Source of the DNA: Spinacia oleracea
Lineage: Eukaryota; Streptophyta; Magnoliopsida; Caryophyllales; Amaranthaceae
Assembly: GCF_020520425.1 (NCBI RefSeq)
Contig: NC_079488.1
Location: 29,751,247-29,815,246 of the forward strand
Reading direction: 5' to 3'
Length of the DNA stretch: 64,000 nucleotides
The position numbers were made by a program, and so were the translations under genes. The notes under the pieces are model-generated. The model had not been told where the DNA came from. It made no database searches and was given only the letters and a program-made list of their open reading frames with translations. Within the stretch, counting starts at the first letter, position 1. Each line of letters opens with the position of its first letter. Shown piece by piece: positions 16,925 to 58,383 of the stretch.

Positions 16925-17415
16925 TCTTATTATTTTCATAATCTAAATTGCATAAACATGGTTAAATATTACAAATTTGCAAGGAATTAAAAGGGGTGAT
17001 AAATTTTCGTAATTGTTAATTAATTGCAAATTGCGTTTATTTAATTATATGTACGCAGTTTTTCGGCAGAATGTTCGTTACTCAACCAAATCGAGTGATT
17101 TTTGTGTCAATTCCGCAGGTAAAAGGCATTCTAAAATTTTGACAAAAAGAGTAATTTTTCGCCGAAACCCAGAATTCCCAAATTCGAAGCCTAACTATGA
17201 CTTTTCGGAGGTTTTAGTTTTTCGAACGCAAAAGTTGGTAAATTTAAGATGTTAAATTAAATATTTGCGATTCTTGTTGATAAATCTTGAATTTTTGATT
17301 GACCTACTGTATATGTTTAACAAGTTTGAATGCCTATGCTTGTTAATTATACAACCTAATTTGTAATTATGATTAATTTGTTGAAATTCGAATAATTTAG
17401 AATTGATTTGACTTG

Positions 17416-18183
17416 CAAATAGTTCTTATGCAGGAAGAAAAGGAGTATGTCCTGGAAGAGGCGATGCTCGAAGCCGCAGGCGACGGGGTCACTCAGGCAG
17501 CCCTCAATCGTTGGATTGATGCCAACAAGGATGTGAAATGTCTAATGCTCGCCACCATGAGTTAAGATCTACAGAAAACGTTCATCAACTCAGATGCTTT
17601 CATGATCATTAGTGAGTTAAAGAACATGTTCCAAGATCTGGCTCGAGTCGAAAGATTCGAGACTCATAGGCAAATTCTTGGGACCAAGCTTAAGAAAGGC
17701 GAGCCCGTAAGTCCACATGTTCTCAAAATGATTGGACTCATTGAGAATATGAGTCGGCTGGATCAGCAATTCTCTCAGGAAATGGCTATAGACACCATCC
17801 TCCATTCTCTTCATAGCGGGTATGATCAGTTCAAACTGAACTACAGTATGAATAGTCTGGACAGAACGCTCACTGAGCTTCACGGTATGCTGAAGACCAC
17901 AGAAAAGACGCTCAAAAGTGATAAGCAAGATGTGCTTATGGTGCGTGGGGGCAAGTTCAAGAAATCTGGAAAGAAGAGGAATGCTAAGAAAGGTGGCAAC
18001 AAGGCCAGCCAGACTAAGCAACCAGCTGGCGCCAAATCTGAAAAGAGGAAGGTCAGTCAACCCACTTCTGAATCTGAATGCTTCTACTGCAAGAAGAAAG
18101 GGCATTGGAAGAGAGATTGCTTGAAGCTAAAGGAAGATCAGAAGAACGAACAGTCGTTCCATCTTCAGGTATTTTCGTTATAG
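17416..18183 (+). pseudogene. gag of copia A (broken)
   Basis: This is retrotransposon capsid/nucleocapsid coding sequence. It is collinear with D from IVLMQEEKEYV onward and ends with a CCHC zinc knuckle (CFYCKKKGHWKRDC) near 18079-18120. A TAA at 17563-17565 replaces an alanine codon present in D. The gag start region is deleted. A run of about 30 lysine-rich residues before the knuckle is kept here but missing in D. Confidence 0.8.
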
Positions 18184-18187
18184 AATG

Positions 18188-20254
18188 TTTTTTTATATAA
18201 AGATTTTGAATTATGTATTATTAATATGTTCACGGGGAATTTCAGAAAAAATGTGATAAGTTGCACTTTGTGGAATCATTATGCTGATGAATTGAAAACT
18301 TGGTTGGCTGAGCACCCAAATTGTCAAGTTATACTTATAGTCCAGTTTGCGAAAATCAAGACTTGGCAAGGTATGGAATAAATTGATTGATGGTTTATGA
18401 ATAATTTTATAGTTATATAATATATCTATCTTATACATATAAAGGTACTAATGGATTATCAAGTTCAGTTTTTGCAACAAGACTCCATACCAATTCAAAT
18501 GTGTAGGAAATCAACGCTTTTAAAAATAGGTATATAAATGAGAAGGTCTATATATACTTCATATTGTATGTATACGCAGAAATGTATTATAAGAGATATA
18601 TATTTCATGTTTAAATTCATAAAGTAAAAAGAATGATAACCGATATTTAAAAATATCGTTTGTCTTTTGTAGCTTTGGGAAAGGAGGAAAGACTTCATCA
18701 GAAATGGTGACTCAACTAAGTAGTCATACCTCTCAGAAAAATGAAACTGAATTCCTAAAAAAATCTGAGAGAAAGCACGTTGATGAGATACGCGAGACAC
18801 AAGAGGCAAGTGATTAATCTCTAACCTTTTCTTATATAATAATGTTCTGTGTAATGTATTTAACATAAGAGAATATATTTTTGGAAAATTTGGTAATATT
18901 AATCCAACCTTTGGCCGATTTTCTTTTATTAATCCCACCTACGACATATTTTTTAATAATCCCACCTTTACTACCCGACGACTTTTATTGGGCTTAAGTG
19001 GCCGGTAATCGGTGAAAAATTCAACGAGATGGTGATGAATTGATGACGATGACTGAATATATCGAGAGAGAGTACTGCCATGTAGAGAAATAATGCCGCT
19101 TACAACAGTTTTATGACCTGTTGGGCCCAATAAAAGTTGTTGGGTAATAAAGGTGGGATTATTAAAAAATATGTCGTAGGTGGGCTTAATAAAAGAAAAT
19201 CGGTCAAAGGTTGGATTAATATTACCAAATTTTCCTATATTTTTTTCTTAAAGGTATGTTATTGTGTGACACTAGCTGTGATCGACTCTATAGAAACTGA
19301 AAATGGGTGGTTCTACCTCGCATGTAAGAAAGATTATAAAAAAGTTCAAGAGATGAATGATGATGCGGGGTGACAAAGTTTTGGTGTGATAAGTGCAATA
19401 CTAATGTTGACCTTGTTCCAAGATTTAAAGTCCAAATTCGGGTTGTTGATGATTCTGGAAGTGCTTCATTTTTTTTATTTGATCGTGAAGTGGTGCATAT
19501 CTTGGGTAAATCTGCTTTATCCATTAGGGAATATCAGGCACAGGTAGTACACAATTCTATAATTTAATATTATCTTATTTGATGGTTTAAGTTTGTATGT
19601 AACCATGTTAATTGACACATATATTTGTTGATGGTGATGGCAGGAATGCAATTCAGATTCATTTCCTAAATATTTAGATGAACTTTTGGAAAGGAAGTAT
19701 TTGTTTAAGATTAGGATTACAGATTATAATCTTAAGCAAAATTGTCCAATATTCACAGTCACGAAAATCTCTGATAATGAAAACCTCATAAAGTCCTTCC
19801 AAGATGCTAATACTCCTGAAAAGGTAGTGTTAAGTTTTGTCGTAATCTATAGTATTATTTTGTATCCTTTACTAACCTTTTTTGGTGTTTTTTCATATAT
19901 ATAGCAGCTTGAGCACGAGGAAATTGATGTTACTTCAAAGACTGTGAATGCCGGAGATGTATTAATATTATTATCTTTTACCATTATCTAAGTTCACTTA
20001 TAGATTTACATCTTAATTCTATGTTCTTCCAGGGCTAAGCACTAACATTTATTTCAATATTATTGCAGAACACTGTCACCATACACAGTGAGGACATGGA
20101 CGACAACTGTTCCAATAGTTGTATCACTCCAAACCAAAAAAGAAGTTCCAAAGATTTTGAAGACGATGGGAATCTTACATCTACTGAGCATTCTTCAAAT
20201 AAGTACCAGCGAATTATTTCGATTAAACAAGAAAAAGGCACCGCGGATAACTAG
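18188..20254 (+). pseudogene. RPA70-like gene, unit 4 (exons 4-10 only)
   Basis: Exons: 18246-18370, 18445-18529, 18673-18805, 19254-19543, 19644-19823, 19905-19958 and 20069-20254. Exons 1-3 and the promoter were replaced by copia A. Further lesions: an extra A at the start of exon 4 (shared with unit 2), GAG to TAG in exon 5 near 18503, and one G missing in exon 7 near 19370 that brings an immediate TGA. The terminal exon is intact. Exon 7 lacks the TAA seen in unit 3, so that stop is private to unit 3. Confidence 0.82.
18883..19235. mobile_element. Mutator-type MITE in intron 6 of unit 4
   Basis: This 353-bp element is absent from units 2 and 3 at the same place. It starts GGAAAATTTGG and ends CCAAATTTTCC, with terminal inverted repeats of roughly 110 bp. 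A perfect 9-bp target duplication TATATTTTT flanks it (18874-18882 and 19236-19244). Long TIRs plus a 9-bp duplication define a Mutator-like origin. It belongs to the same family as the element at 34874-36002. Confidence 0.92.
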
Positions 20255-27166: not shown

Positions 27167-27530
27167 TTTTGATAAGGTGTTTTTCCGTCGTTGAATAGAA
27201 AATCACCTCACCAAAAAAAATTTATAAAACACCTAAACTGCCGGCTATATTGACTATAGCGGCAAGCATAGGGATCGTCCCATAGGAATGGATATGTTTG
27301 ACTATTCAATCTATGCGTTCACAAGCTAGTTCGGATGGAATTTGAGTTTTTGAATTAAACTAATCAAAGCTAGAAATGCGAACAAATAAAGAAATTCTAG
27401 AGGATTCGGGAATCGGCTATGGAAATCGAATCAAAGGAAGCACAAGGTCAAAACATTCATGAATATGCAAAGACTTGATGCATAGGCAAATAGCATCTAA
27501 TGACGAACCCTCCACCTCTCGGATAGGGAA

Positions 27531-28165
27531 TGTAAGAAATAAGGCTATTGAAATCAAATAAATAAGAGAAATTTAATAACTTTACTTGATTGATAATCTC
27601 CGAATTACAATGATTGTGCCGTGGTATGAAGGCCACTGACTTAGAAGCGAATTTCGACACTACAGGTACAGGCTCTCAAGTGACGAACGCCCCCCAAGGT
27701 TAACACAATCCTCTTCTAAATTCGTGCACCCGAACTCAGAAGGTGGAACTGCTCAAGAACTGCTCAGATCTCTAATAGGGTTTAGGGTTTTGTTTTGGTA
27801 TATTGTGTTTTTGGTTAATATTATTTCGTGTATGTATTACCGAAGGAAATACGTAGAACATATCTATATATATTCCAAGTAAATTGGAGATTAGACCAGC
27901 CATGAATAATGATAACCACTAAAAGTGTGGGCCCGCTTGGAATAAAGAATCCTAATGGGTTTGCACAACCTCCCAATACAACTAGTAGACTTAGGATTAT
28001 AAAATCAATAAAACAAAAGAATGCAGCATAATAAAATCTTTAATGCAGTGAGCTTCACATTAGGAATGCGGCAAACGGTTATACCCCGCGGTGTACCCGC
28101 GGACTTCGCTCTTCATCTCCACGCAATTTAGTCCAACTACTTTACACTTTGCATTACTATTAACA
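27531..28165 (-). repeat. 3' LTR of copia E
   Basis: This is 635 bp, TG to CA on either strand, and is nearly identical to 32859-33493. It contains the TTAGAAGCGAATTT segment at 27641-27654 on the plus strand. Confidence 0.93.
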
Positions 28166-28797
28166 ATCCCCCACTAAGGCAAAGTTTGGACTAGACTAAG
28201 AGAAACTGAGCAGTAAAATGTAGGTTAAGTACTTAAATGTTAGTATCCAAAGGTTTGAACTAACACATAGTGGAGTGGGGTGTTTAACGGTCTAGAGAGT
28301 GTCCAAAGGATTGAACTCCTAGATTATTAAAGTTACCCGACAACACGTACCTCTGCATAGGAGCTTGAGCAATTCCTCGATAAGTAACACGGCCACTCAT
28401 CTTGGGACTCTTAGTGAACGCTCTAGAGAGATATCCCATCACTCATAGAAGGAGGCCATCCCTTCACATTCACCGTAGGTGTTCCGCGAACATTAAGAAC
28501 ATTTATGTTCAACCTTCCATCTATACAACTCACCGGTCATCTCACGACACCACTAGCTCGAGTGGCCTATGTCTGTGAGGCTAGTTATATAGATCTTCTC
28601 ATGACACCATTAACTCGAATGGTCCCGGTCTATGAGGCTAAGCAACGAAGTACCGTATCTACAGAGCATCTCATGACATCACTTAGATAAGTGACCTCGG
28701 TCTATGAAGCTAGATTCCAGAGCTTTTAACTCACATACATCATCCCTTTCGGGATGGCTCACCACACGGGTTTAGTATCTCTCAAACCCATACCTCT
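28166..28797 (-). other. 3' noncoding region of copia E
   Basis: About 630 bp lie between the end of RNase H and the 3' LTR. They hold diverged repeats around CTCA(C/T)GACA(C/T)CA at 28541, 28598 and 28670, each followed by a phrase like GGTCTATGAGGCTA. No ORF of note is present. A related repeat-rich region is present in copia F. Confidence 0.6.
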
Positions 28798-31700
28798 TCA
28801 TGAATCAAGTACCTTCCTTCTGTCCAGCCCTTTTGTAAAAGGATCCGCCAGGTTCTTCTCCGTTCTCACATATTCCAGAGAAATCACACCATTCACAATA
28901 AATTGTCTTATAGACTCATGTCTGACACGAATGTGTCTTTTCTTGCCATTATACACACTATTCTTCGCAACAGCTATGGCAGCTTGAGAATCAAAATGAA
29001 TAGGTACAGAAGGAGTTGGCTTACCCCATAATGGAATGTCTGCTAACAAGTTTCTCAACCAATCGGCCTCCTGCGTCGCAAGATCTAAAGCAATGAACTC
29101 CGACTCCATGGTAGACCGGGCTATGCACGTTTGTTTAGATGACTTCCATGAAATTGCACTTCCACACAAGGTAAAAACATACCCACTTGTTGAACTCACC
29201 TCATCACTATCTGTCACCCAGTTCGCATCACAGTATCCTTCGAGAACCAATTGGAAACCAGTAAAGTTTAAACCCCATTCCATGGTGCCTCTAAGGTATC
29301 TCAACAAATGTTTAAGAGCACTCCAATGCTCCCCTCTTGGATTATGGGTATAACGACTGAGTGTACTTACAGCAAAAGCAATGTCAGGTCTAGTGCAATT
29401 CATCAGAAACATAAGACTACCAATCACCTTGGCATATTCCTCCTGAGAAACACTCGTTCCATTATTCTATAACAGATGTTTGTTCGGATCATACGACGTC
29501 CTCACGGGCACCATATCAAAGCAGTCAAACTTCTTCAAGATCTTCTCCACATAATGGGTTTGAGACAACATGTAGCCCTTGTCGATCTTAGTGACTCTCA
29601 CACCAAGTATCACATCAACCTCATCCAAGTCTTTCATCTCAAATTTGGAGGACAAGAAGTTCTTAGTTTCATTTATGGCATCTATACTAGCACTGAATAA
29701 GAGCATATCATCAACATATAAGCATATAATCACACATTCAGTACCAAACATCTTTGTGTAGACACACGCGTCACTGCCATTCACCACAAAGCCAAAACTA
29801 AGAATAGTGTTATGAAATTTTTCATACCATTGCTTCGGTGCCTGCTTCAAACCATATAACGATTTTTTTAGTCTACATACCTTATTCTCCATCCCAGGAA
29901 CTACAAAGCCAGGGGGCTGCTCCATGTAGATTTCCTCCTCCAAATCTCCATTTAGGAAAGCTGTTTTAACATCCATCTGATGAACAATCAAATTAAACGC
30001 AGATGCTAACGCAAATAAGATACGAATAGTAGCTATCTTAGTCACGGGAGAGTAAGTATAGAAATAATCAACACCAAACTTCTGTGAGAATCCTCGAATC
30101 ACAAGCCTGGCCTTGAACCTTTCAACTGAACCATCAATCTTCTTTTTCCTCTTGAAAATCCACTAGCATCCTATGGCCCTACTCCCTTTCGGGAGCTCCA
30201 CCAACTCCCATGTTTGATTTGTCAAGATGGATTCGAGTTCACTATTGATCTCTTCCTTCCAGAAACTCGCATCAACGGACCTCATAGCTTCTTCATAGGT
30301 TTTGGGGTCATCATCTACTACCTGTAGACACACCATTATTTCATCCAAACCATCCATACTTTCCATCTCAGCGAGGAACGCTGTGAGAAAGTCAGGTCCA
30401 AAACTTATTTCTGTCCTTTGCCTTTTACTTCTCCTAGGTTGCACTTGATCATCAACCCTAGAGGAAGTTTCAAAATGTTTTGCAGAAGGTCTAACTTGGG
30501 AAGACTGTCCTGCAGGTAGGGTAGCAAAGGAAGAATCATTAGTATCAACTTTAGTTTTCAAGGGAAATACCTGCTCGAAGAACTCAGCATCACGAGCCTC
30601 GCATATCGAGTGATCATCAAGTCTCATGAACCTGTATGCTGCACTGTTCTCCGCATAGCCTACCAACACAGTATCAAATGTTCTCGATCTTACAGTAGGC
30701 CGTTTGAAAGATGGATAACCTACTTTTGCCAAACACCCCCACACCTTCAAGTAGCTCAGATTAGGAGCATAGCCCTTCCAATACTCATACGGGGTCTTGT
30801 CCAGCTTTTTATGAGTGACCCTGTTCAGCACAAAGTTTGTAGATAACACTGCTTCCCCCCACAAGTTATCGGGAAGACCGGAACTCAAAAGCATTGCATT
30901 CATCATTTCTTTCAACGTTCGGTTCTTTCTTTCAGCTATGCCATTTTGTTGTGGGGTATAGGGAGCTGTCACCTCATGAATAATGCCTTCCTTCTCGCAC
31001 ACTTCCTTTAGAAATGTCGACCCATATTCTCCACCTCTGTCAGACCGTACCCTTTTGATTTTTCGATCTAACTGATTTTCTACCTCTGCTTTATACACCA
31101 GGAACTTGGACTCTGCTTCATCTTTAGACCTTAAAAGGTAGATTTTGCTATACCTTGAAAAATCATCAATGAAAGTAATGTAATAGCGTTTTCCACCTCT
31201 ACTTTCCAAGTTCTTGAAATCTGCCAAGTCAGTGTGAATTAACTCTAACAATGTTGTTTCCCTCTTTGTGACTGGTTTGTATGGTTTCTTCACAAACTTT
31301 GACTCAACGCGTACACCACATTTATTGCGTCCATCAATTGTCATATTCGGGAGCATATTTAAGCTCTTCATACGTTTCAATTTGCTCACCCCCACATGTC
31401 CCAATCTACTATGCCACAGATCAATGGACTCAACAATATAAGCAGAAGAAGAATTCTTATTCATGTTAGAATAAAAAACAAAGTCAAGAACAAATAAACC
31501 CCCATTCAGGTATCCCTTTCCTACATATTCGCCATTGCGAGTCAGAACAAGCTTGTTAGCTTCAAAGACTAACTTAACACCTACTTTGTTTAGCAAAGCA
31601 CCAGAAATTAAATTCCTACGAAGGGATGGTACATACAGTACATTGTGTAAAGCTAGTGTTTTTCCAGAAGTGAGATAGAGAAGCACCTTGCCCTTGCCAA

Positions 31701-32828
31701 GTACCTCAGAGCTGCTTGAATTTCCCATGTAGACTTGTTCGCCCTCTTCAGCTTTCTCAAATTCCACGAACATGTCTTTGTTGTCACAAAAATGTCTCGA
31801 AGCCCCTGTGTCAACAATCCACTCAGTTATGTTTTCCACCAGGTTCACCTCAGAAATCACAGCAGCTATCACATCATCTGTCTCTGCAATATGAGCCTCA
31901 CTCTTTGGTTTATCCCTGTTGTTACTCTTCTTGTTCCGACACTGGTACTTGTAATGTCCCTCCTTTCCACATCCATAGCACACACCTGTGAACTTCTTCT
32001 CAATTCTCCCTTTCTGCACAAACTTGCCTTTCTTAGCGTTTCTTGAACTTTGTCCCCTGTTCAAGTTTCCATGACTTGCATTCTTATCAGAATTAACATT
32101 AGTTTCAACCAGATTAGCTCTCACAGCAAGTTCATTCTTGGGTTTCAATGGAGTATATCTTTGAGCCGGTTTGCTTCTTCAACCTTCATATGACTCACTA
32201 GCTCAACAAGAGTTAGATCCCTTTTCTTATGCTTCAGACGGTTCCTGTAGTCAGGCCAAGAATCAAACAATTTCTCAATCAATACATTTGCCTGAAGAAT
32301 TTCGCACATCTTCATGCCTTCAACAAGAACTTCAGCAACTAGGGTCTCATATTCATGGACTTGCTCCATGACAGGCTTAGTATCAACCATCTTAAAATTG
32401 AGCCAATTTCCAGTAACATACTTCTTCTTCCCAGCATCATCTGCACTATACTTGTTCTCAAGAGATTCCCAAATTGCCTTAGCCGATTTTTCTTTAATAC
32501 AGAGATCAAAAATTGGGATAGTCATGTGGTACACCATGTGACCCCTAACAACCTTATTGTCTTTGTCATGCTTTTTAACATACTCCTCATTACTCGTAGC
32601 AGTTGTACTACTAGTTGATTTTCCAGTTTGAACAGGTGTATCAAGAACAGTAATAGTTTTTTAAGTTGAGGTTGTAGGGATAGGACGATCATTGAACAAC
32701 ACATAATCAATATCAGCTTGTTCAAAATAAATTAACAATTTTTGAGACCACCTCTTATAATTAGTCCCATCAAGTGGTTCTAATTTTGACAGATCCAACA
32801 TCAAACGAGATTGCGGTAATCCAGACAT
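28798..32828 (-). pseudogene. gag-pol polyprotein of copia E (broken)
   Basis: Minus strand, start ATG at 32828. The order is the copia one. First come gag and a CCHC knuckle (CYGCGKEGHYKYQC), then protease (IVDTGASRHF) and integrase (HSRLGHV, HTDLADF, RSDRGGEY, PQQNGIAERKN). Next comes reverse transcriptase (HQMDVKTAFLNG, LYVDDMLL), then RNase H ([23 protein letters not shown]) to a TGA at 28798-28800. Lesions: TAA in gag at 32661-32663, a one-base loss near 32150-32160 between gag and knuckle, TAG at 30163-30165 before RT, and TAG at 29467-29469 between RT and RNase H. All catalytic motifs I can see are kept, so the decay is recent. Confidence 0.9.
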
Positions 32829-32842
32829 GATTTCAATAGTAT

Positions 32843-32856
32843 AAATTCGCTTCTAA
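32843..32856 (-). promoter_or_regulatory. Unusual primer-binding region of copia E
   Basis: On the minus strand TTAGAAGCGAATTT starts two bases after the LTR end. It does not resemble the initiator tRNA-Met site seen in copia A, C and D. It is a perfect 14-base complement of a segment inside the LTR about 110 bases upstream in the transcript. This suggests an RNA stem around the primer site or self-primed reverse transcription. Confidence 0.55.
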
Positions 32857-32858
32857 AT

Positions 32859-33493
32859 TGTAAGAAATAAGGCTATTGAAATCAAATAAATAAGAGAAAT
32901 TTAATAACTTTACTTGATTGATAATCTCCGGATTACAATGATTGTGCCGTGGTATGAAGGCCACTGACTTAGAAGCGAATTTCGCCACTACCGGTACAGG
33001 CTCTCAAGTGACGAACGCCCCCCAAGGTTAACACAATCCTCCTCTAAATTCGTGCACCCGAACTCAGAAGGTGGAACCGGTCAAGAACTACTCAGATCTC
33101 TAATAGGATTTAGGGTTTTGTTTTGGTATATTGTGTTTTTGGTTAATATTATTTCGTGTATGTATTACCGAAGGAAATACGTAGAACATATCTATATATA
33201 TTCCAAGTAAATTGGAGATTAGACCAGCCATGAATTATGATAACCACTAAAAGTGTGGGCCCGCTTGGAATAAAGAATCCTAATGGGTTTGCACAACCTC
33301 CCAATACAACTAGTAGACTTAGGATTATAAAATCAATAAAACAAAAGAATGCAGCATAATAAAATCTTCAATGCAGTGAGCTTCACAGTAGGAACGCGGC
33401 AAACGGTTATACCCCGCGGTGTACCCGCGGACTTCGCTGTTCATCTCCACGCAATTTAGTCCAACTACTTTACACTTTGCATTACTATTAACA
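32859..33493 (-). repeat. 5' LTR of copia E
   Basis: This 635-bp LTR matches 27531-28165. On the minus strand it carries a TATATATAG promoter-like stretch near 33200 and, downstream, the segment AAATTCGCTTCTAA (plus coordinates 32969-32982). That segment is complementary to the sequence just outside the LTR at 32843-32856. Confidence 0.93.
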
Positions 33494-34603
33494 GGGAACG
33501 CTAAGCGTCTAATCCACGGAAGAGCTTTCGCCTAATCCTAAATTAAACTAACTAGCATATAATAGGCACCACTATTTGATCACACAAGATAAGCCCACAA
33601 TCTCTCGCCAAACCTATCTTATGGTTCCAATTGAATCTTAATCGAATAGCATTCGCGACTACTACTCAACTAGGCATGGATGTCCTAGCACCGAATCACA
33701 TTTAATCACAACATCAATCATGAATTTCCCCAAAACTTCTCCAAATTCAATCCCAAAGCTTCATCCCTAACCTCTAGGCTAAACTACTCAATTAGCATGA
33801 TTAACATTAACATCAACATTAAACTAATATTAATCCTAATCATTAATATAATTGCAACAATGAAGCTAAATGAAACAATAAAATTCAGAAAATTCAAACC
33901 ACAAAAATTGGGGAAAAATCAAGCAAATTCAAAATATCAAACTAATTCTAGAATTCAAGCATAAAATCAAAGCATAAACGAAATTAATAAAGAAATTAAT
34001 AAAGAAATTAAAGAATTAAAGAACAAAACAAATGAAGAATTAGAATTATACCTTGAAATGAAGAAATTGCATCAAACTTTGAAGAGCAAAATTGAAGAAC
34101 AAAATTCAAAGCAAAGAGAAAAAGAAATCTGAAAATGATGATTGAATTGAATTTAGAATCAAGAATTTCAGGCTAAGAATCCTTAATCCTAATCTCTAAT
34201 CTAAGCCCTAAACTAATTCTAGAGAGAAAATTCTAAGCTAAGCCTAAGAGAAATGAAAATTACGTAATGAAAGCCTAATTCACAATGCTGCGATTTTCGG
34301 TCTTTATAGTAGCAGCCCCGCAAAGCTGTGCGATCGCACCAACAAAGGCTGAGTTCCTGCCTTGATTTTGGCAATTCGTGTGCTCGCACTAAACTTCAGT
34401 GTGGTCGCACAGCAGTGTGCGCACACACGCTAAATCTGTGCGTTCGCACAGCTACTGCACTTGTTGTTTGCTAGTTGTTGTGGCTGCTATTCTTCTTCGA
34501 TGTTGCTGCTGTGTTTGCGTGCTATTTCTTGCGTGATGTTGCTGCTGATATTGCTAATGTACAGCTGCAAATAAAGAACTCAATTGAGCAGCAACGAAGC
34601 TCA

Positions 34604-36202
34604 TGTTGGAAATAATGCGTTTTAACCATGAAATTAACAATAATAATAAGGAAGAAATACAATACTCAATAATTGATCTCAAAAGCTGTGACGGGTTTTA
34701 CGCCTGCCCTAGAAGCGTATTTCGCCACCACCGGTACAAGGTTCTCAGTGACGATTGCTCCCCAAGGGTAACACAGCTGCCTTCCAACTCTGTACTCCGA
34801 TTGGAAAGCTGGAATTACTTCAAGAACTGCTCAGATCTCTATGGGACGATAATGACAGAGATAATATTTATTTGGAAAATTTGTAATTATTAATCCAACC
34901 TTTGCCCGGTTTTCTTTAATTAAGCCTACCTATGCGATATTTCTAAATAATCCAACCTTTATGACCCAACTACTATTATTAAGCCTGGATGACCGGTTAC
35001 TTGCTACAAAGTCAAGGAAATTTTGTAATTATTAATCCAACATTTGCCCGATTTTCTTTAATTAAGCCTATCTATGCGATATTTCTAAATAATCCAACCT
35101 TTATGACCCAACTACTATTATTAAGCCTGGATGACCGGTTATTTGCTACAAAGTCAACGTTAAAAACGTTGACAACCTAAAGTTGGTTTCCCTGCTAAAA
35201 TATTGGACACGTCATCATCAATTGCCACCTAAACAAGGATTTCATTTTTTTTTTCCAAAAAACCCTTCTTTTCTCTGTACCGTGTTTCAATTCCTCTCTC
35301 CTCCATTACTGCTGCTTCAACCACAATTGTACTGGTTCATGATATCATCAGCGATTCTCTTGTGGAAATAGGTGACTTCATCCACGCGCATTCAAATTTC
35401 GTCTCCAAAATCGTACAATTGAAGGTGAACTTACGAACCTTAACGTTTTTGTTCCTTTTTTGGTAAATTTTGAATTTTGGGCTTCCTTGATGGTCAGTTC
35501 GTAAAAACCCGAGCTGTTGCAATAATATAGTTTTTTTTTATGTTGTGGGATGTTGGTTATTGTGGTCTTGTTGAAAATTTAGAAAGAAAAAAAAAATCTT
35601 GAATTTGAAGAAGATCCAGATCCAACAGGCAATTGCTTTACCCCAGCCATAGCATTTGCTGATTATTTTTAATGAACTTCGAATGGAGAGGTATGAGGGA
35701 TCCACAATGGTGGAGAAGAGGTAGAAGACAAATAATGGAGAGGAGTTCAGAGATGAAGCAGAAAATCGCAGAGGAGAGAGGAACAAAAATTAAAATAGCA
35801 ATTAAAGAAAATAAAGGAAAATAAATAAATTCTAATTGTTATATGCCACGTAAGGATGAATACCGCCTATAGCAGGTTAGTAACTTGTTAGGCTTAATAA
35901 TAGTAGTTGGGCCATAAAGGTTGGAATATTTAGGAATATCGCATAGGTAGGCTTAATTAAAGAAAATCTGGCAAAGGTTGGATTAATAATTACAAATTTT
36001 CCTATTTATTTAGGGTTTTATTGTTTCTCTGTGTATATCTGAGTATTTTTATTGGAATAAATAAAGGAGTATTTATAAGGAATCTGGTATAAACCGCAAC
36101 TCCCAAACAATACTCCAAAACCAATACCCACGACAACACCGAAACGGGCCCACAAGCATTATCACAATTAAACGGATCCGTATTGCATTATAATTACCAA
36201 CA
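34604..36202 (-). repeat. 3' LTR of copia F, split by a Mutator-like element
   Basis: After removing 34874-36002 and one 9-bp target copy it is 461 bp, exactly the length of the other LTR. It ends ACCAACA before AATCCCCTA. Confidence 0.92.
34874..36002. mobile_element. Mutator-like element inside the copia F LTR
   Basis: This 1129-bp element has long inverted ends, GGAAAATTTGTAATTATTAA at the left and its complement at the right (about 35889-36002). A perfect 9-bp target duplication TATTTATTT lies at 34865-34873 and 36003-36011. The uninterrupted site is visible in the other LTR. The left inverted repeat is duplicated in tandem (34874-35015 and 35016-35165). The interior of about 700 bp has no transposase. 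It may be captured sequence, but no gene was recognised. Confidence 0.93.
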
Positions 36203-39200
36203 ATCCCCTACTAATGCATACGGACAAGAGATCTTGAAATCTGAGCAGTAAATGAAAGGTTTAGCGCATAATTGTTAGTGTCTGAAGACTTGAACAAACA
36301 CATTAGTGGAGCGAGGTATTCAACAACCAATAAAGTATACGAAGATTGAACTCTACGACTATTGAAGAAACCCAACACCACACGCTTCACCTTTAGAAGC
36401 TTGAAAAATTCCGCGACCGCATGAAACGTCATACGAGGACAACATTCCCTTGGATTCTAGTGAGTATTATTAAAAAAAACAACAAACATGTTTTTCATAG
36501 AAGGATGTCATCCCCTCTTACTCACATAGGTGTCTCATCAAGTGTATTTTACCACATAAACCACCCAAAAGGGATATGAAGACATTAAGAACTTTAAACG
36601 TCCAACCTTACCCATCGGTATATCCATCAAGTCCGTTTTATTAGGACCACTCAAAGGATCTATGGATATATTAAGAACATATTGTTCAACCTCACAAATT
36701 GCACAATGTATCTATCACGTCTTCTCATGAAATCACTTAGTAAGTGAAGTCAATGAGGCTAGATACTTTAATCTTAAATCCATCAAGTTCAATAATAAGA
36801 ACCATCCACACAATAGGACTATGGACTCATAAGAGCAACAAGGATTAACCTTCCCAATCATAAAGCGGTGTATCTATCAAGGCTTCTTATAGTACCACCC
36901 ATTCTAGGGGACCATAAGGCTAGATACATTAAGAGTAAAATACTCAACCTCACACAAAACGGTGAATCCATCAAGTTCTCTCATAGAACCACCCAAATTA
37001 TGGATATAGATTCATTAAGAGCATAAGCTCATCCTAACAAGTGTTTTCCGTAGAAATTGAACACAACATAAATTTATAAACTCTTCCTCTTAACTAGTTT
37101 GACACCAACTCGTGCCAAGACCTTACTTAAATAATATTTTCTCTTTAATCTCACATACTCAAGGAAGATATCACATTCATAAATAATTGTATCTTTTCAT
37201 GTCTAAATTGCACGAATGTGTCTCTCTTTGCCAATTAACTCATTGTTCATGGAAACTCACACATACAATAACTAGTGAATGTCAGTATAAAGAGATGGGA
37301 TAAATTACTTATCCCCATAAAGAGCCATCATCCAATAGCCTTTTTCTAATTGTATGTATATTGACTTGTAGGATCCAATGATATTGACCATAAACTTCAT
37401 ATCAGGCTCATCATTGTTACTCAATGGGCATCTCAAACCTATTCGTTTGATCCTCTTCCCATTGTACCTTTTGGTGAATTATGGAGATTACTTTCACGCT
37501 CTCTACCTGTGTAATACAGGATTACCTACAAAGTATGCTTACATCACAAGCATCATCAAGTCATAAATCGATCATACAATATTAGAGCTTCAAGCATGTT
37601 AGCATATTCAATTTATGAGAAACTCTTTCTACATAGATTTTAATGACAACATACTACGATCATATGTGCAATAATATAATGACCACTCAATAAGAAATTG
37701 GTAGTTACCAAGAAACTCCTCTACAAACTCATATGCAGTTAGGACATACCTTTACCGACTCATTTGTTTAAGTTTAGCTCTTATATTGGATCGAGAAAAT
37801 AGGAACTTTATTCTCATCTTAATATGTGTACGTACCATGCAACAACATATGATTCATACAAGGCACATGAACACTATCAAAGTCAATCATATATACGAAT
37901 ACACATATGCATCAGGCGTGATCATAATAGAGCCAAGAACATAAATTAGTTTAATTAAAACTTTTCATCCAACTGTTTAGGTGCACGCAAATGACCTTAT
38001 AAAGATTGCTCAAGTCTACTCACCAAATGCACCACACTAGGTAGGTAACATGAATTCTAAATAGTGTTTCATTGACAGTTAAATAAACTCACTGGTTAGT
38101 CCCAATTACTAACTCAAGTCCCCCACATTTCTCAACAAAGTATCATATAATAGCGTACCACACATCAAGGGAGGGGACATAACTACATATTATGTAGATA
38201 CGTTAGAGATTGGCAAAATTAAATTTAGAGAACAAACTTCCCTAACATCTGTAGAGCATGTTGGACCTTCTCGTATTGATTTAATACTCCTCTTTGATGA
38301 GCATTATGTTTGCCATTTATAATCAAAACTTGTTTTAATGATATAATGAATCTTTATCTTTAGTTACAAAGAGCCCCTGCAAAACTTACCACCAAGGTTA
38401 GCATTTACCTCATGATAGCTCATACCTCACTTTCTTACTCTTCAACAAACAGTGGTTTTAGAGCACGGCCATGCTCCTCTTTTCCGTGTCAGTTCTTGGT
38501 GCCTCTACTAGCACCACAAACATATATAGGCACCTCGCACCTCGTCATCTGCTGCCAAATAGAGAGACCATGAAGTATGATATCAATTCAAAAGCAGAAG
38601 CCGTCCAAATCACAAGCACCCCATGGCATGAAAAATAAGGCCGCACTGAAGTCGCGTAGTCTACTGATTGTTGACTCTCACACGAAACCCACAACCATTG
38701 CATTAGCTCAATACACTTTGCATAAGAGGAGGAGAAAAGTAGAGTTCACGGGTAGGGTGTGGCTCCCGAGATGATGCCACGGTCTCCCAATGGAGTATAC
38801 TGACTGTCATGGAGAAAATTAGAGTTTTATGTATGTTGAACTTTAGGTGATTAACTTCTCTTTGACCAATCATCATCCTTTATAAAAAAAAATATCCAAC
38901 TTATATAAGTATCATATCTTTTGAGTACCTACTTTTAGAAAGTATAATACCCCAAGGTTTTTTTAAAAATATATGTATACCTCCGCAAGATGTATATTGT
39001 CGCCGTCAAAAGTTTATGAAACACAAACCCATTATTAGTTATAGCTTTCCACAGTTTATCTTGAATCAGTCAAATAAACCACCAACAAGACTATATGAAT
39101 AGGTGATCGACAAATAATACAGCATGTACTATCTTGAATCGGTGATTGAACAAATAATACGGAATATAGTATATAATTGTTGTCACAATTTGTATGTTAA

Positions 39201-39299
39201 TAACACACAAGTAAAACTACCGTATCAACAAATTTGGGGTATCCTCACCAATTGATCATGCATATGATTCATGGTAACAACAGTAATACGCTTCTAGAT
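36203..39299 (-). other. Decayed interior of copia F
   Basis: No coding region survives. Repeated phrases (CATCAAGTTC..., ATAGGACCACCC-like, GGCTAGATACATTA) in 36480-37030 resemble the repeat-rich 3' region of copia E. The part 37020-37330 shows weak RNase H homology. The remainder to 39280 is AT-rich with nothing recognised. Confidence 0.65.
39285..39297 (-). promoter_or_regulatory. Unusual primer-binding region of copia F
   Basis: On the minus strand CTAGAAGCGTATT starts two bases after the LTR and is a perfect 13-base complement of an internal LTR segment. Two positions differ from copia E, and both are matched by compensating changes in the LTR partner. Confidence 0.55.
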
Positions 39300-39760
39300 T
39301 GTTGGAAATAATGCGTTTTAACCATGAAATTAACAATAATAATAAGGAAGAAATACAATACTCAATAATTGATCTCAAAAGCTGTGACGGGTTTTACGCC
39401 TGCCCTAGAAGCGTATTTCGCCACCACCGGTACAAGGTTCTCAGTGACGATTGCTCCCCAAGGGTAACACAACTACCTTCCAACTCTGTACTCCGATTGG
39501 AAGGCTGGAATTACTTCAAGAACTGCTCAGATCTCTATGGGACGATAATGACAGAGATAATATTTATTTGGGGTTTTATTGTTTCTCTGTGTATATCTGA
39601 GTATTTTTATTGGAATAAATAAAGGAGTATTTATAAGGAATCTGGTATAAACCGCAACTCCCAAGCAATACTCCAAAACTAATACCCACGACAACACCGA
39701 AACGGGCCCACAAGCATTATCACAATTAAACGGATCCGTATTGCATTATAATTACCAACA
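39300..39760 (-). repeat. 5' LTR of copia F
   Basis: This 461-bp LTR starts TGTTGGAAATAATG and ends TACCAACA. It contains CTAGAAGCGTATT at 39405-39417, complementary to 39285-39297 just outside the LTR. It shares a block around GTATTTCGCCAC-ACCGG with the otherwise different LTR of copia E. Confidence 0.93.
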
Positions 39761-40679
39761 GCTCAAACAACAGCAGCTAAGTATATGCTTCATGTAGCTG
39801 TTGTACTTGCTCGTTGTTGCTGTTGTTGTGGCTTCTTGCGTGAAGAAATTGAAGAATTAAAGAACAAAACAAATGAAGAATTAGAATTATACCTTGAAAT
39901 GAAGAAATTGCATTAAACTTTGAAGAGCAAAATTGAAGAACAAAATTCAAAGCAAAGAGAAAAAGAAATCTGAAAATGATGATTGAATTGAATTTAGAAT
40001 CAAGAATTTCAGGCTAAGAATCCTTAATCCTAATCTCTAATCTAAGCCCTAAACTAATTCTAGAGAGAAAATTCTAAGCTAAGCCTAAGATAAATGAAAA
40101 TTACGTAATGAAAGCCTAATTCACAATGCTGCGATTTTCGGTCTTTATAGCAGCAGCCCCACAAAGCTGTGCGATTGCACCAACAAAGGCTGAGTTCCTG
40201 CCTTGATTTTGGCAATTCGTGTGCTCGCACTAAACTTCAGTGTGGTCGCACAGCAGTGTGCGCACACACGCTAAATCTGTGCGTTCGCACAGCTACTGCA
40301 CTTGCTGTTTGCTAGTTGTTGTGGCTGCTATTCTTCTTCGATGTTGCTGCTGTGTTTGCCTGCTATTTCTTGCGTGATGTTGCTGCTGGTATTGCTAATG
40401 TACAACTGCAAATAAAGCACTCAATTGAGCAGCAACGAAGCTCAAACAACAGCAGCTAAGTATATGCTTCATGTAGCTGTTGTACTTGCTCGTTGTTGCT
40501 GTTGTTGTGGCTTCTTGCGTGAGTTGCTGTGACTGAAATTCTGTGCTATTCTTGTTGCTAGGATGTTGGTTGTGTAGCTGCTACAAGATACTGCAAATGA
40601 GCTAAGGTGAGGACAAGAGGCTGCTGCTGTAATGCCACGAACAAGAGCTTGAAAGTGCGCGTAAGTACAGCAGCTATGC

Positions 40680-41596: not shown

Positions 41597-43250
41597 TGGT
41601 GAAGGAAGGAGGTCGTGCGAGGAGGCGAGGCAATGTTAGGGTTTCACAACGGGAGAGGAAGGAGAAGAGTGACGTCGAATCTAGTGGCTGACTAGCAGCG
41701 GCGAAGGAAGGAGATGCAGTGACAAAGGAAGGAGATTGTGCGATGATTGTAAGTTCGATTTCTGAATTCGATGATTGTAAAATCTCATTTTCGGGAATTA
41801 ATATGATTTTTTCTTTTGATTTTAATTTTTGTTTTTGGTTTTGTTGCACTGTTGGTTGTTGCTGCGATATTGGAGGATTTTACGCGTGTAAGGGGGTTTT
41901 TCTTCCGTCGACAAATTTGTATTTCCCCTACGCAAGGCTTTTGTATATTTTTGGATTTCGAAGGTGTCACCACCAAACATTTTTAAGGGTCTCGTTTGGA
42001 AAGACCAAAATTAACTCTATATCGGATAAGGCGTTGAATCTTAGAAACGGATGGGTGAGATCCGGGCAAGGAACGAGATGCTTATTCAGCGAGCGTTATT
42101 GAAGTGCATAATTGAAAGGATGCGATATTGAAATTGAACTATTGTATTTGAGATCCGAACGCCAAACTACTTCTTATGAATAAGTGCGTCCGACACGGAT
42201 TCAAGTCTAAAAATCTCAACTTTAGGACAAATTGCTCATCCTAAAGTGTCTTAGATATTGGACATAGAAATTGAACATTGAAATATTGAATCTTGAATCT
42301 TGAATATTGTACTTGAATATTGAAATGAGGAGTCTTGAATCTCAAAGATTAGACCTTTAATATTGAAAAGGTTTCATCTTTGATATGCTCCATGTAGTGA
42401 AATGATTCTAGTTTAAGGAAGTGATTACAAACAACCTTAAACATCATAGAATCTTGAAAATGAGACTTGAACTTGAATATTGAAAAGTGGAGGCTTGAAT
42501 CTCAAAGATAAGACCTTTAAACATTAAAAAGGCCTCACCTTTGATTACTCCATGTTCTGAAAATGATTCTAGTTTAAGGAAGTGATTACAAACAACCTTA
42601 AACATCATTGAATCTTGGAACTTTGTATTTGTATCATAGAAAGTGTTGATTTTGTAAATATATGTGATTGTTGTAAGTGACCCTTTAAAAGTAAAAGTGC
42701 CAACTTTACTAATCATTTTGAAAGAGAAATTATAGAAACATGGTATATTAGGATTGGGATTCGGAATTACCTGGCTAGTTAGGTTTAGGCTAGAATTCCT
42801 CTTGGAGCTCCCAATTGCTTAGAAACTTGCGATTTGTATGGGTTTTTTGAAGAAATTTTATTTTGGATTTTGAGTGGCAATTTCAGAATTACGACGTTAT
42901 GGCTATGAATTTCTTCCCTAAAGTGATGGAAATTAGGGGTTTAAATAGGGAAATGAGAGGCTGATCACCAACTTACAACTGCGCCTAGCGCATGAACGGC
43001 GCCGCTGACGTGGCACATAAGACGCCAAGCAAGGACGAAGATGTCGTCCTTGCGTTTGGCTTGTAGTGGGCGTACCCTTTGTACGAATTATAGTGTTTTT
43101 TGGCACGTAGTTTTTCTTGGTGATTAAGGAAATTTGCGACTAAAAGCTAGCCGTTTTGGTTTTTCGAATTCGGTTTTACGGGACGAGGCTCGGCTTGCTC
43201 GGTTTTGTGGGTCGGCGCCCGAATTTGGATCGCTTAGTGTCATTTCGACT
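41597..43250. other. Unassigned segment with an internal duplication
   Basis: No gene is supported. A direct repeat of about 125 bp lies at 42332-42455 and 42494-42616 (core GATTCTAGTTTAAGGAAGTG), separated by about 162 bp start to start. The part 42960-43250 (ACTGCGCCTAGCGCATGAAC, GGGTCGGCGCCCGAATTTGG) is GC-richer and resembles a diverged gypsy LTR. Its edge cuts the TNP2 gene. Confidence 0.4.
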
Positions 43251-45619
43251 GGAAAAGGCCTTGTAAAACCAATGGAGTGGAAAAGGCCTTGTAAAACCAA
43301 TAGTAGTAGAAACTCCTTTTTCATTTCGATTGTGAAAAATGAAGGCAGAAACTCCTTTTCCAACTCACAAAGAGTTAAAATAATTTCATTTTGAAGACCA
43401 TCTAAATCATCTGGATCAATAGTAGTAGAGCACAACTTCTTGAAAAAGGAAGACAATCTAGCCAACAAGTCAATTACTTTTGTAGCTTTAGAGGCCCTTA
43501 AGGCAACGGCAAGGATATCCTGCATTAGAACATGGTTGTCATGACTTTTGAGGTTAATCAACTTCCTTTGCTTCATATTCACACAACTAGAAAGGTTGGA
43601 TCCATATCCATCAGGAACTTTAATTTTCTGCAAAACATTTAGGAACCTCTCCTTCTCCTCCGTAGACATAGAATAGGAAGCCGGAGACATGCATTTACCT
43701 CCGTTAGGATTAGTACTCAGCCAAAGGTGAGACTTTATTCTCCATGCTTCAAGGGCTTCTCGATCATTCCTACTATCTCTACTCTTATCCATACTAAGAA
43801 GAGTTCCCAAAATATTCTCAGACACGTTTTTCTCAATGTGCATCACATCTAAATTATGCCTTAGAAGATTATGCTCCCAATACACCAAATCAAAGAATAT
43901 GCTTCTCTTGGTACCAAAGTCACTTTTATCTTGGACATCATCGTCATCATCGTGTCCTCTTTGCCTCTTTTTCGGTGGTGCCTTCGACTTTCCGTAAACA
44001 TGCTTCACCTTTTCTTGCTGCCTCAATATATCAGTGCCGCTAGGACGAGATGGGGCTTTACCCCATTCATTAGTTCCAAACTTCTCACAAAACTTGTCAC
44101 TTTGACATCGATATGGGTGATCTGCAGGTAACCATTTTCTATAGCTACAATAGCAAATCTTGCTCCCAAATCTATCAGAAGGCGTGGAATCTAAGCATAT
44201 AGGACATGCATTGTAACCTTTTGTGCTCAAACCAGAGAGCATTGCATAGCCGGGAAAGTCATTAATAGTCCAAAGCAAAGCCGCACGCAAATTAAATTTC
44301 TCTCCGGAAAAAGCATCAAAAGCTTCAACCCCTGTCCACAGCAATTTCAATTCATGCACTAATGGCTGCAGATACACGTCAATATCATTTTCAGGACTTG
44401 ATTTTCCAGGAATAAGCGTGGACAGAATGAAAGAAGACGGTTTCATACATAACCATGGTGGAAGATTATAAGGAATCAACATCACTGGCCACGTACTATA
44501 AGTGGTGTTCATTAAACGATAAGGATTAAAACCATCACTCGCAAGACCTAATCGAATACTACGAGGGTCTAATGCAAAATCACTGTGACGCTCATCAAAT
44601 GCCTTCCATGCTAAGCTATCTGAAGGATGCCTCAAAATCTTCTTATCATCTTCACCCAATTGCTTTGTATCATGCCATCTCATATCTTCTGCTGTTTCTG
44701 ATGACATGTAGATTCTTTTTAGTCTCGGTATAAGAGGGAAATATCGCATTACCTTAGCTGGCACACCTTTCTTACAAGTATCCGTACCTTGATCACTTAC
44801 AACGTTGCCCCTATCCTTAGTTTTCTTCCACCTCGATGTACCACAAACATGACACTTGTCTTTCTTTAAAAATTCACCCCAATACAACATGCAATTATTC
44901 GGACAAGCATCAATCTTTTCATACCCAAGGCCCAAGTCTTTTATCATTTACTTACTGTAATAATAAGAAGAGGGAAAATCAAGTATTTGAGGAAATGCAT
45001 CTAAAATTAGCTTCAACAACATATTGAAAGATTCTATGGACCAGTGATTCATACACTTCAAGTGAAACAAGTGTGACAGAAAAGATAACTTTGAAAAATT
45101 GATACACCCCTCGTACAATTTCTCCTCAGAAGCTTCAAGCAACTTCTTATATGTCACATCTTCTTCTATTGTAGAATAATCATATTCTACATCTGTGTCA
45201 TAGGCCACGGGCTCCTCAATCCATTCATCATCCTCTCGTGCTTCTAAATTTGGGCAGTTGGGAGGCATATTAACACTAAATGCTGATCTTAATAGCCCTC
45301 CCATATTATCTCGACCTACAAACCCACTTTGGTTATCAAGGGATCCTTCACTAGTAATCCCTCCATCACTCTCAAACATACGCTGAAACGTATCCCCTTT
45401 ACCATGAAAAATCCAATCCTTATATGGCTTATAAAATCCCTTAAACAAAATATGCCTCTCCACTTCATTTACGGAGAACCATTTCTCTACCTTACAGTTC
45501 TTACATGGACATCTAATTTTTCCTTCGACTAGATCTTGCTTGGAAAACTCAATAAATTCCATACAACCGTCGATATATTGATGATGACCAGTGGGTAGAT
45601 CGATCCAACTTTTATCCAT
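43124..45619 (-). pseudogene. TNP2-type CACTA transposase (broken)
   Basis: Minus strand from ATG at 45619. Residues 1-75 match the transposase-associated N-terminal domain (KSWIDL, YIDGCMEFIEF, CPCKNC). An in-frame TAA at 44948-44950 follows SYYYSK, and the frame resumes at once with MIKDLGLGYEKIDACPNNCM, the hallmark of the tnp2 family. Later blocks such as GYAMLSGLSTKGYNACPICL, HNLDVMHIEKNVSENILGT and an RHxxLRxHDxHVLMQ-like stretch are present. After about residue 780 the frame runs into foreign sequence (43124-43250). The usual C-terminal DUF4218 region is absent. It is not functional as it stands. Confidence 0.88.
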
Positions 45620-46500
45620 ATCTATACGAAATTAGTTGAGTAATTAGTAATATACGTCGGTCGCAGAATATAAAATTTTTATATGTACTTATTAAAATAT
45701 TATGATCATTCTTAGAACCTTGATATATCACACGAGATTAATTTAAGTCACATAACACCTCCGTACACAACTCTTCTTAATTCATACCATAACTTATGGT
45801 TTTTTGTTTAATCATTCTTCCTTAGTGACTAATATTTGTGATCTATCTTCATCTTCTAAAAGTTATTACCCTCTATCACTTCCATATTATATTTTCTTTT
45901 TGCGCACAAGATCATACTTTCCACTTCACATGAATTTGCAAGGAAAATAAAGCATGTGATTTTAGCGCACAAGGTGATACTTTCAACTTCACACGAAGAC
46001 AACAATATAAATCCATTTTTTTAAAAGAGTAAGAGTACCTTAAGTAACGTGGCATCACATAATCAGAATTTATGGTAAAATTTCTTGGATTAAATGTAAT
46101 TAAGCTAAGCAAAATTATGCAGTGGGGATAATGTAATTAGACAAACAATACCAACACAAAATGCCAAAGCTAACAAAAATACGTACTTACAAATTTGAAG
46201 CTATTATATCAAAACATTTGAAATTAAATCAACAGGAATACAATAGAAAGATCCAACTTTTGCATGATTGACGTAAGTTATGATAGCACAATAAACGTCG
46301 GTATATGCTCATTGTATATATATTGGACATCGAGGAAATGTAAAGCCACGGAAATTATATTCTAACACTTAACAAACCTAACTGGCAGAGTTGTAGCCCA
46401 CCCTTGTCCATACAAAATTAGGGAAATAACAATTGTCCAATAAAAAACCTAAAAGGGACTTTATAGTATACATACCTCTAGTATCAAAGAGCAGATGCAA

Positions 46501-55805: not shown

Positions 55806-58383
55806 TATTATTATTTGAATAATCTATAAATTGCTTAACATGGTTAAATTTTACAAATTTTCAAAGAATTAAAAAGGGGTGATTAATTTTCGTAATTATT
55901 AATTAATTGCAAATTGCGTTTATTTAATTATATGTACGCAGTTTTTCGGCAGTTTCTTCGTTACTCAACGAAATCGAGTGATTTTTGTGTCAATTCTGCA
56001 TGTAAAAGGCATTCTAAAATTTTGACAAAAATAATAATTTTCGGCCGAACCCAGAATTCCCAAATTCGAAGCATAACTATGACTTTTCGGAGGTTTTAGT
56101 TTTTCGAACGCAAAAGTTTGTAAATCTAAGATGTTAAATTGAATATTTGCAATTCTTGTTGATAAATCTTGAATTTTTGATTGACCTACTGTATATATTT
56201 AACAAATTTGAATGCCTAGACTTGTTAATTATACAAGCTAATTTGTAATTATGATTAATTTGTTAAAATTCGAATAATTTAGAATGGATTTGATTTTCAT
56301 AATTAATTAATGATTTAATTAGGTACCCATGATTAAAAACCACCATAAAAATTGTTAATTTATGATAAATTTTTAATTTTTATGACCCAGATTTGAATCC
56401 ATGTTAATCGGAAATTAATTGATTCATAAATTTTCGATTTTTCGCCATAAAATTATGAAATTAATATGATTTATTAATTTGTCATTAATTTGGAATTAAA
56501 AGTTTTAAATTTTTATGAAAATCGCCCATAAAACTTGCACGCACAAAGCAATGGACGCTACGTGTTACCCTTAAGGGGTGTTGTATAGTGCGGGCACGCG
56601 ACGACGAGCAAGGGAGCTCGTCGCCCGTGTGGTACAATGCAGCGAGCAAGGGCCATGGCACACGAGCACAAGGCAGCACGATGTCCTTGTGTCGAGTGTC
56701 GTATGCAGCATGGGCGAGGGCAATGGGCAAGCACATGCGACGAGCAAGATGCATATGGGCAGCGATGAGCTGCGCCACGACGCACCAGGCCCGCCGAGAG
56801 CTAGGCAGCCACGACACAGCTCAAGGCTGCGCGCAGCGTAGCCATCATGGCCGCGTGTGTGCGTGGCATATGGCTGTGTGTGCGGTGTGGCTATGTAAGC
56901 CGTGTGCCACGATCAATGGCTGGGGCATGGGGCCTCGTAGCTCGATGGGGCTTGGGCGCAAGCCCAAGTGCCTCGGCTTGCGACAATTGATACGTTTTTA
57001 TTTTAATTTTGGATTTTCAGTTCGGAAATAATTTTAATTAATTTTAAAATTAATAATTTATTATGTTTTCTCGGAATTTAATTTTGAATATTATAATTAT
57101 TATAAATTTTAATTTATACTAATTATTTTACTAAAATTAAAATCTTGAATTAATTTAAATTCATTTAATTCAACTGAAAATAAATTAAGTGGATTCAACT
57201 ATAAATTTATATGACCTTTAAATTTTAATTAAATTTGTATGTTTCCGGTTAGACTAGAAATACATTTTTATGTTTAAAATTAGTAAACCATATGAATTTA
57301 TTGGTTTAAGTAGGAGCATTTTAGTCATGAACTCTTGATTAGGTCTACAAATCCTTTAAGGTTAAAATACTTGATTAGAATTAATAAGGACTGAATAATT
57401 GGTAGATTATTGGTGCCCTTGATTAATTGCTGCAAATATTTATGTGATGCATAACGTGTTTTACTAACCAGCTATGTGGGCCATTCATGATAATGAATGG
57501 GTGAATGGTATGTATTGTTTTGCAGGTTATAAAGTGACTAGTATAGCCCAAATAGGATAGAAAATATGGTCTGGGTACCATTAATTTGAATGTAATTGGT
57601 CTAATGCACCAATGTTTGTTTTTCAATTCAAATATGGTCTGCGTACCATCAAATAGTTGTAATTACTTTAATTATAGCTTATCCTATTTAAATAAAATGA
57701 CGCCTCCCATGGTGAAATTCAAGACGGACTTTCCAATCCATTTTCAAGACGGACTTTGAAGTTGAAGCTTCAAGATGAAGTCGGGCCATACTAGATCACA
57801 TTTATCTTATGCATGCTTTAAGTTATTTATTGCTTTAAATATGTCTTAATTATGCATGAGATTGTGCCTTGATTATGTTGCATGATTAAGGATTTTAGTT
57901 CACTTAAAATCTAACCAACATAGTAAGAGCCTTAAGTTCCAAAATTTAAAAATTGAGTTAAAAGGTGCCATGCCAAAATAACACTTACTTGGATAACCTT
58001 TACATCAATCTAGTAATAGTTTTATGCTCAGCGAGGTGTTACTTATTGACCCTAAAGGGGTAAGGTACACAAATAATTGTGAGTACATGTTAGTTTTGGT
58101 GAAACTCAACGATATAAGTAAGGAAGAGTAGTTTCTAGACTATTAGCAAAAGGCTTTTGCTTACCTAAAAGATTTTAGAATTGAGTCTAAATACATAATG
58201 TGCTTAATTCTTCAATGGTTTTAGGGTCTTGGAATCATTTTATTCACACCTGCCGGAACACATAAACTTGAATAAAATGCTTAATGAACATTAAATTATG
58301 CATACATGCTAGAATTTAAGTTTATTAAGAGAAACTGTGAATGATTATTTATTTGTTTATTCTTTTTCATTGTAGTTTTAACT
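55806..58383 (+). other. Long leader of copia D
   Basis: This 2.6-kb leader has no supported gene. A GC-rich stretch at 56530-56990 interrupts otherwise AT-rich sequence. Several overlapping ORFs there differ from those in copy C and follow base composition only. The remainder up to the gag ATG is AT-rich. Confidence 0.65.

Follow-up and report, generated by a model that had tools for sequence, protein, structure and literature searches.

A plant-type Copia retrotransposon and a neighbouring relative with a putative self-primer in the LTR

In plant Copia, a self-primer derived from the 5' LTR has been predicted for the TAR lineage, which in the nomenclature of Wicker & Keller and of REXdb includes Houba, Osr-1, and Fourf, and self-priming was predicted for 12% of the plant elements surveyed, according to passages of that survey (Neumann et al. 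2019, PMC6317226). The sections of a 2025 review that bear on the subject describe only tRNA-derived primers for plant elements (PMC12786077), and an article on Rosa contains TAGAAGCG (PMC6786968). Within the literature searched, in which subscription journals are thinly covered, no experiment on self-priming in plant Copia was found, and the phenomenon appears to be known there only as a prediction from sequence. In Tf1, the primer consists of the first nucleotides of the element's own mRNA, as stated in a passage of PMC5445492.

In a 64-kb stretch of DNA (the window), we identified a Copia-type LTR retrotransposon, element E, and a neighbouring relative, element F, for which TAR is a closer precedent than Tf1. 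As in the TAR lineage, a plant Copia without a tRNA site appears to take its primer from the LTR, while the covariation, the border at +3, the U5-IR-like stem, and the promoter distance described below for E and F are absent from the TAR passages of the survey (PMC6317226). The likeness of E to TAR is suggested by its Copia order and its self-complementary site; the position of the integrase upstream of the reverse transcriptase is common to all Copia elements and is not specific to TAR. With Tf1, Tf2, and Tj1, and with the Tf1/sushi group, E and F share a putative self-primer in the LTR and a complementary site beside the LTR, and a U5-IR-like stem around that site may form in them as well, as far as the relevant parts of the sources go (PMC4600332, PMC5445492). 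That group belongs to the Ty3/gypsy superfamily, however, whereas E has the Copia order and not the Ty3/gypsy order of the polyprotein. The finer details of the Tf1/sushi likeness are general background.

Element E lies on the minus strand and has LTRs of 635 bp each, which end in TG..CA in element orientation and differ at 13 of the 635 positions when aligned (Table 1). It is flanked by a target site duplication, GGGAA, at 27526-27530 and 33494-33498. No Pfam match was obtained for the piece at 28798-29466, nor was an RNase H domain found in E (Pfam, cut-off E 0.001). This copy is defective, because stops interrupt its coding region.

Table 1. Features of elements E and F, with positions in the window.
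Feature	Position	Strand	Basis or remark
E 3' LTR	27531..28165	-	LTR-LTR alignment
E polypurine tract region	28166..28177	-	TTAGTGGGGGAT in element orientation, before 3' LTR
E coding region, in pieces	28798..32660	-	ORF list and Pfam
E RVT_2 reverse transcriptase piece	29467-30162	-	Pfam
E Pol_BBD/integrase piece (rve match)	30163-32178	-	Pfam
E gag piece	32145-32660	-	Pfam
E downstream arm of U5-IR-like stem	32828..32839	-	Inverted repeat; final base is also the first base of the gag ATG
E putative primer-binding site	32843..32856	-	TTAGAAGCGAATTT in element orientation; +3 to +16 after LTR
AT dinucleotide, LTR/primer-site junction of E	32857..32858	-	Counterpart AT between polypurine tract and 3' LTR, 28166-28167
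E 5' LTR	32859..33493	-	LTR alignment and target site duplication
E U5 arm of U5-IR-like stem	32873..32884	-	12-bp inverted repeat
Conserved LTR block ending with putative self-primer segment	32968..33036	-	E LTR positions 458-526
E putative self-primer segment, 5' LTR	32969..32982	-	AAATTCGCTTCTAA in element orientation; proposed 3' end 32969
E TATA-like box	33193..33200	-	LTR position 294; consensus match only
F 3' LTR, split by insertion 34874-36002	34604..36202	-	blastn pairs and alignment
F putative primer-binding site	39284..39297	-	CTAGAAGCGTATTA in element orientation; 13 of 14 complementary
F 5' LTR, 461 bp	39300..39760	-	blastn pairs
F putative self-primer segment	39405..39418	-	CTAGAAGCGTATTT on the plus strand

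An earlier note on this locus had claimed that the 14 bases next to the 5' LTR of E are the exact reverse complement of a segment within that LTR. An inverted-repeat scan bore this out: on the plus strand, AAATTCGCTTCTAA at 32843-32856 is the exact reverse complement of TTAGAAGCGAATTT at 32969-32982 over 14 bp. Within 32301-33500, 2 perfect inverted repeats of at least 11 nt were detected, namely this pair and a 12-mer pair at 32828-32839/32873-32884. The stem of about 14 bp across a loop of about 110 bases that had been put forward likewise agrees with the 14 complementary bp and the 112 nt (32857-32968) that we count between the arms. An identical 14-mer is present in the 3' LTR, at 27641-27654. 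The complementarity begins 2 nt past the terminal CA of the LTR (minus strand; LTR edge at 32859).

The tRNA-Met site had been described as absent, and indeed TGGTATCAGAG, which we take to be the tRNA-Met primer-site motif, was not found in the window, even when 1 mismatch was allowed. A site for any whole tRNA would start with TGG, the complement of CCA, whereas the LTRs of E and F are followed by ATTTAG and ATCTAG, respectively. We consider a whole-tRNA primer unlikely for either element, because neither E nor F has a TGG among its first 20 internal bases, and this candidate was rejected. Also rejected was a tRNA gene inside the LTR, as ARAGORN finds none there; nor did it find one elsewhere in the 64-kb window.

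Several controls address how often such complementarity arises by chance. For E, a stretch of at least 14 nt complementary to the 20 internal bases next to the LTR was present in 2 of 20,000 dinucleotide-shuffled LTRs; for F, one of at least 13 nt was present in 1 of 20,000. Within the internal region of E, 3 of 4,673 20-mers reach a complement of 14 nt; these are taken to contain the primer site itself, on the basis of counts only. We also scanned all CA dinucleotides on both strands of the window, testing the bases from +3 against a complement 60-300 nt upstream. A complement of at least 13 nt was found at 4 of 8,263, which correspond to E, F, and the ends of an inverted repeat at 15246/15327; with the criterion relaxed to 12 nt and offsets of 0-3, 22678/22841 and 40691/40907 also emerged as inverted repeats. 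The 14-mer itself has near matches at chance level, with 16 at no more than 3 mismatches against 14.6 expected, and F is distinguished by the position of its near matches, not by their number. Among the other matches with 3 mismatches, the one at 27706 lies within the E 3' LTR and the one at 39284 is the site of F. A further match with 3 mismatches, at 63699, was dropped, as it belongs to a short repeat with no visible LTR (62800-64000 inspected). For the Copia gag pieces that start at 17411 and 58462, no LTR border was found in 17200-17600 or 58100-58620, and no further primer site.

Element F (34604-39760), which was discovered through the near matches of its LTR segment and primer site to the 14-mer of E, has the same layout with a changed sequence. 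Its LTRs measure 461 bp, and it is flanked by a target site duplication, GCTCA, at 34599-34603 and 39761-39765. The segment is present in both of its LTRs, with the copy in the 3' LTR at 34709-34722, the complementarity again begins at +3 after the CA of the LTR, and, as in E, an AT dinucleotide is found at both inner LTR borders. The 3' end of its internal region is 70% similar to that of E (28149-28380 versus 36183-36416, blastn). F is probably a non-autonomous relative of E, because nothing in its internal region (36203-39299) was recognised as gag or pol when the ORF list was inspected by eye.

The comparison of E and F provides the covariation check that the earlier note had proposed, in the one relative available. 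Both substitutions in the LTR segment of F relative to E recur in its primer site, so that in columns 1-13, 2 of 2 changed positions are compensated; column 14 of the site holds the only unmatched base. As a result, E pairs with itself over 14 nt and F with itself over 13 nt, while the crosswise combinations E/F and F/E pair over 8 nt each. With uniform odds and two differing columns among the 13, the chance of hitting the right columns with the right bases is 0.0014, a post hoc figure, because F itself was picked by its near matches to the 14-mer. The covariation thus concerns two positions in two homologous elements. If plus-strand synthesis were to copy the primer, it would rewrite the site from the LTR segment in every round, which would explain the joint change of site and segment.

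The 12-mer pair of E resembles the U5-IR stem, a feature of retroviruses. Its duplex has a predicted energy of -14.6 kcal/mol, and an equally good one was found in 2 of 2,000 mononucleotide shuffles. In F, 8 bp and a few more pair at the corresponding places, with a sequence unlike that of E; here, 13 of 2,000 shuffles did equally well. The gag ATG of E (32826-32828) is situated at the edge of the stem. When pseudoknots are disallowed, the best fold of the E leader contains 12 of 12 pairs of the U5-IR-like stem and 0 of 14 pairs of the primer stem, while that of the F leader contains 13 of 13 primer-stem pairs and 0 of 8 pairs of the U5-IR. The two stems cross, and forming both would make a pseudoknot. 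Self-priming of Tf1 reportedly needs the U5-IR stem, to go by the title of a paper (Lin & Levin 1998) cited in PMC4600332.

In both LTRs of E and in the 5' LTR of F, 218 bp separate the TATA-like box from the segment downstream of it, despite the unequal lengths of these LTRs. The segment is probably located around 190 nt inside the transcript, since the start is placed some 30 bp after this box. The earlier note had cited Tf1, and not TAR, as precedent, and with respect to a self-primer within the LTR this parallel stands. It probably does not extend to the position of the primer, however: in Tf1 the 5' end of the mRNA is used, and the distance from the TATA-like box argues against such an end for the segments of E and F. 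The segment closes a block that, of the well-conserved stretches shared by the two LTR types, is the longest, with 60 of 70 aligned columns identical, compared with 70 of 122 over E LTR positions 527-635. Similarity is even higher, at 19 of 20 columns, in a short stretch around E LTR position 392.

Explanations other than self-priming were weighed against these observations. A chance inverted repeat could draw on the 12-15-nt inverted repeats found beside CA elsewhere in the window and on the chance-level number of near matches. The shuffle and CA-site controls speak against it, however, as does a second element with the identical layout and compensating changes, and on these grounds chance was rejected as very improbable. 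The stem of 13-14 bp could also be a regulatory lock, which hides the primer site or aids packaging or translation control, with another RNA acting as primer. Leaders of retroviruses and Ty elements are known to pair primer-site regions with U5/R, the gag ATG of E borders the stems, and the primer stem is part of the best fold of F. Yet the match spans the whole expected site from +3 in both elements, a border that a lock does not need, and the missing TGG leaves no whole-tRNA site for another primer; we regard this explanation as unlikely.

Alternatively, the site could pair with a host tRNA that has been cleaved within the anticodon arm, in which case the LTR segment would merely resemble that tRNA. 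The inferred primer end of E, CTTCTAA, does resemble the anticodon loop of tRNA-Arg(UCU), a likeness that we presume from general tRNA rules. The corresponding end in F, CTTCTAG, is a poorer fit, the half-tRNAs named for plants presumably have different anticodon loops, and the joint change of LTR and site in F is left unexplained. Drosophila copia, Osser, and Bianca, which are primed by half-tRNAs, are likewise of the Copia type and lack a whole-tRNA site, but in E and F the LTR and the site covary. Half-tRNA priming is known in plant Copia with 1/2tRNA-Met and 1/2tRNA-Ile, and passages of the survey report such sites only in Osser, Bryco, Gymco-II, and Bianca (PMC6317226). Judged by the sequences of the two elements, this alternative is weakened, and we hold it to be quite unlikely.

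Self-priming is the best reading for E and F, but it is not new, and E adds one more probable example to the plant Copia elements for which self-priming has been predicted. We consider it likely that reverse transcription of both elements is started by their own RNA. The transcript would start approximately 30 bp after the TATA-like box, and its LTR segment would pair with the primer site. The RNA would then be cut after ...CUUCUAA in E or ...CUUCUAG in F, as inferred from the pairing, probably by the RNase H of the element if the analogy with Tf1 applies. Extension of the freed 3' end through U5 up to the cut would yield minus-strand strong-stop DNA with an expected length of about 110 nt for E and about 105 nt for F. 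The AT dinucleotides at the LTR borders fit a primer end at +3, provided that the integrase trims two bases. Retroviral integrase trims two such bases, while this is not known to hold for Ty1. An internal cut must be assumed for E and F, because the segment is probably some 190 nt inside the transcript, unlike in Tf1.

A more specific form of self-priming combines such a cut, some 190 nt from the 5' end, with an LTR-derived primer, a pseudoknot, and a site that is rewritten in each round; as a whole, this is a tentative proposal, in which we place limited confidence. The conserved block of about 70 nt before the cut may act as a recognition element, and the cut would set where the minus-strand strong-stop DNA ends. 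Together, the pairing of primer and site and the U5-IR would yield a pseudoknot whose architecture mimics that of a tRNA bound to a retroviral leader.

The E/F pair makes the mechanism directly testable, since it allows covariation to be examined, predicts where the 3' end of the primer lies, and provides a further candidate stem. If E and F are indeed self-primed, they would be independent of tRNAs. Elements of this kind would therefore be expected to evade the silencing that tRNA fragments direct at tRNA-primed elements.

Searches for relatives of E found none in viral contigs (protein and reverse transcriptase alignment searches) or genome contigs (reverse transcriptase), nor did the conserved LTR block, used as a pattern, match any of these contigs. 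A tblastn search gave no match on phages and 4 matching records on plasmids, 3 of which were examined, the fourth (H4) being left out. These 3 are actinobacterial plasmid records with Copia polyproteins (NZ_CP115454.1, NZ_CP115302.1, and NC_015657.1), and their Copia pieces are probably contamination. Those of the first two are taken to be plant DNA from rhizosphere samples, while the polyprotein in NC_015657.1 looks, by eye, presumably yeast-like.

NZ_CP115302.1, deposited as a plasmid of Streptomyces from rhizosphere soil, carries a plant-type Copia primed by tRNA-Met and served as a tRNA-primed control. Its reverse transcriptase is 47% identical to that of E, and two bases separate the apparent CA of its LTR from the primer site, with the LTR border placed by eye. 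It differs from E in that it carries TGGTATCAGAGC, and its best self-complement within 900 nt upstream is only 7 nt long. A search for the other end of its LTR did not find it. The record is listed as linear, but the reverse transcriptase precedes an LTR-like end with the tRNA-Met site, as in an opened circle with one LTR.

Various other repeats were observed in the window. The 1.1-kb insertion in the F 3' LTR (34874-36002), which we take to be Mutator-like, has the terminal inverted repeats GGAAAATTTGTA and TACAAATTTTCC, is surrounded by a 9-bp target duplication, TATTTATTT (34865-34873 and 36003-36011), and includes a tandem duplication of 142 bp (34874-35157). At 43127-45631, Transposase_21 (tnp2) and Transpos_assoc domains occur in ORFs that probably represent a CACTA-type DNA transposon. 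A second, different Copia element extends in pieces from gag to reverse transcriptase at 58462-61153, and part of its gag occurs again at 17411-18188. Finally, region 1-20833 contains several long repeats, spaced about 3.5, 5.3, and 5.9 kb apart, that are 93.6 to 97.7% identical (blastn pairs).
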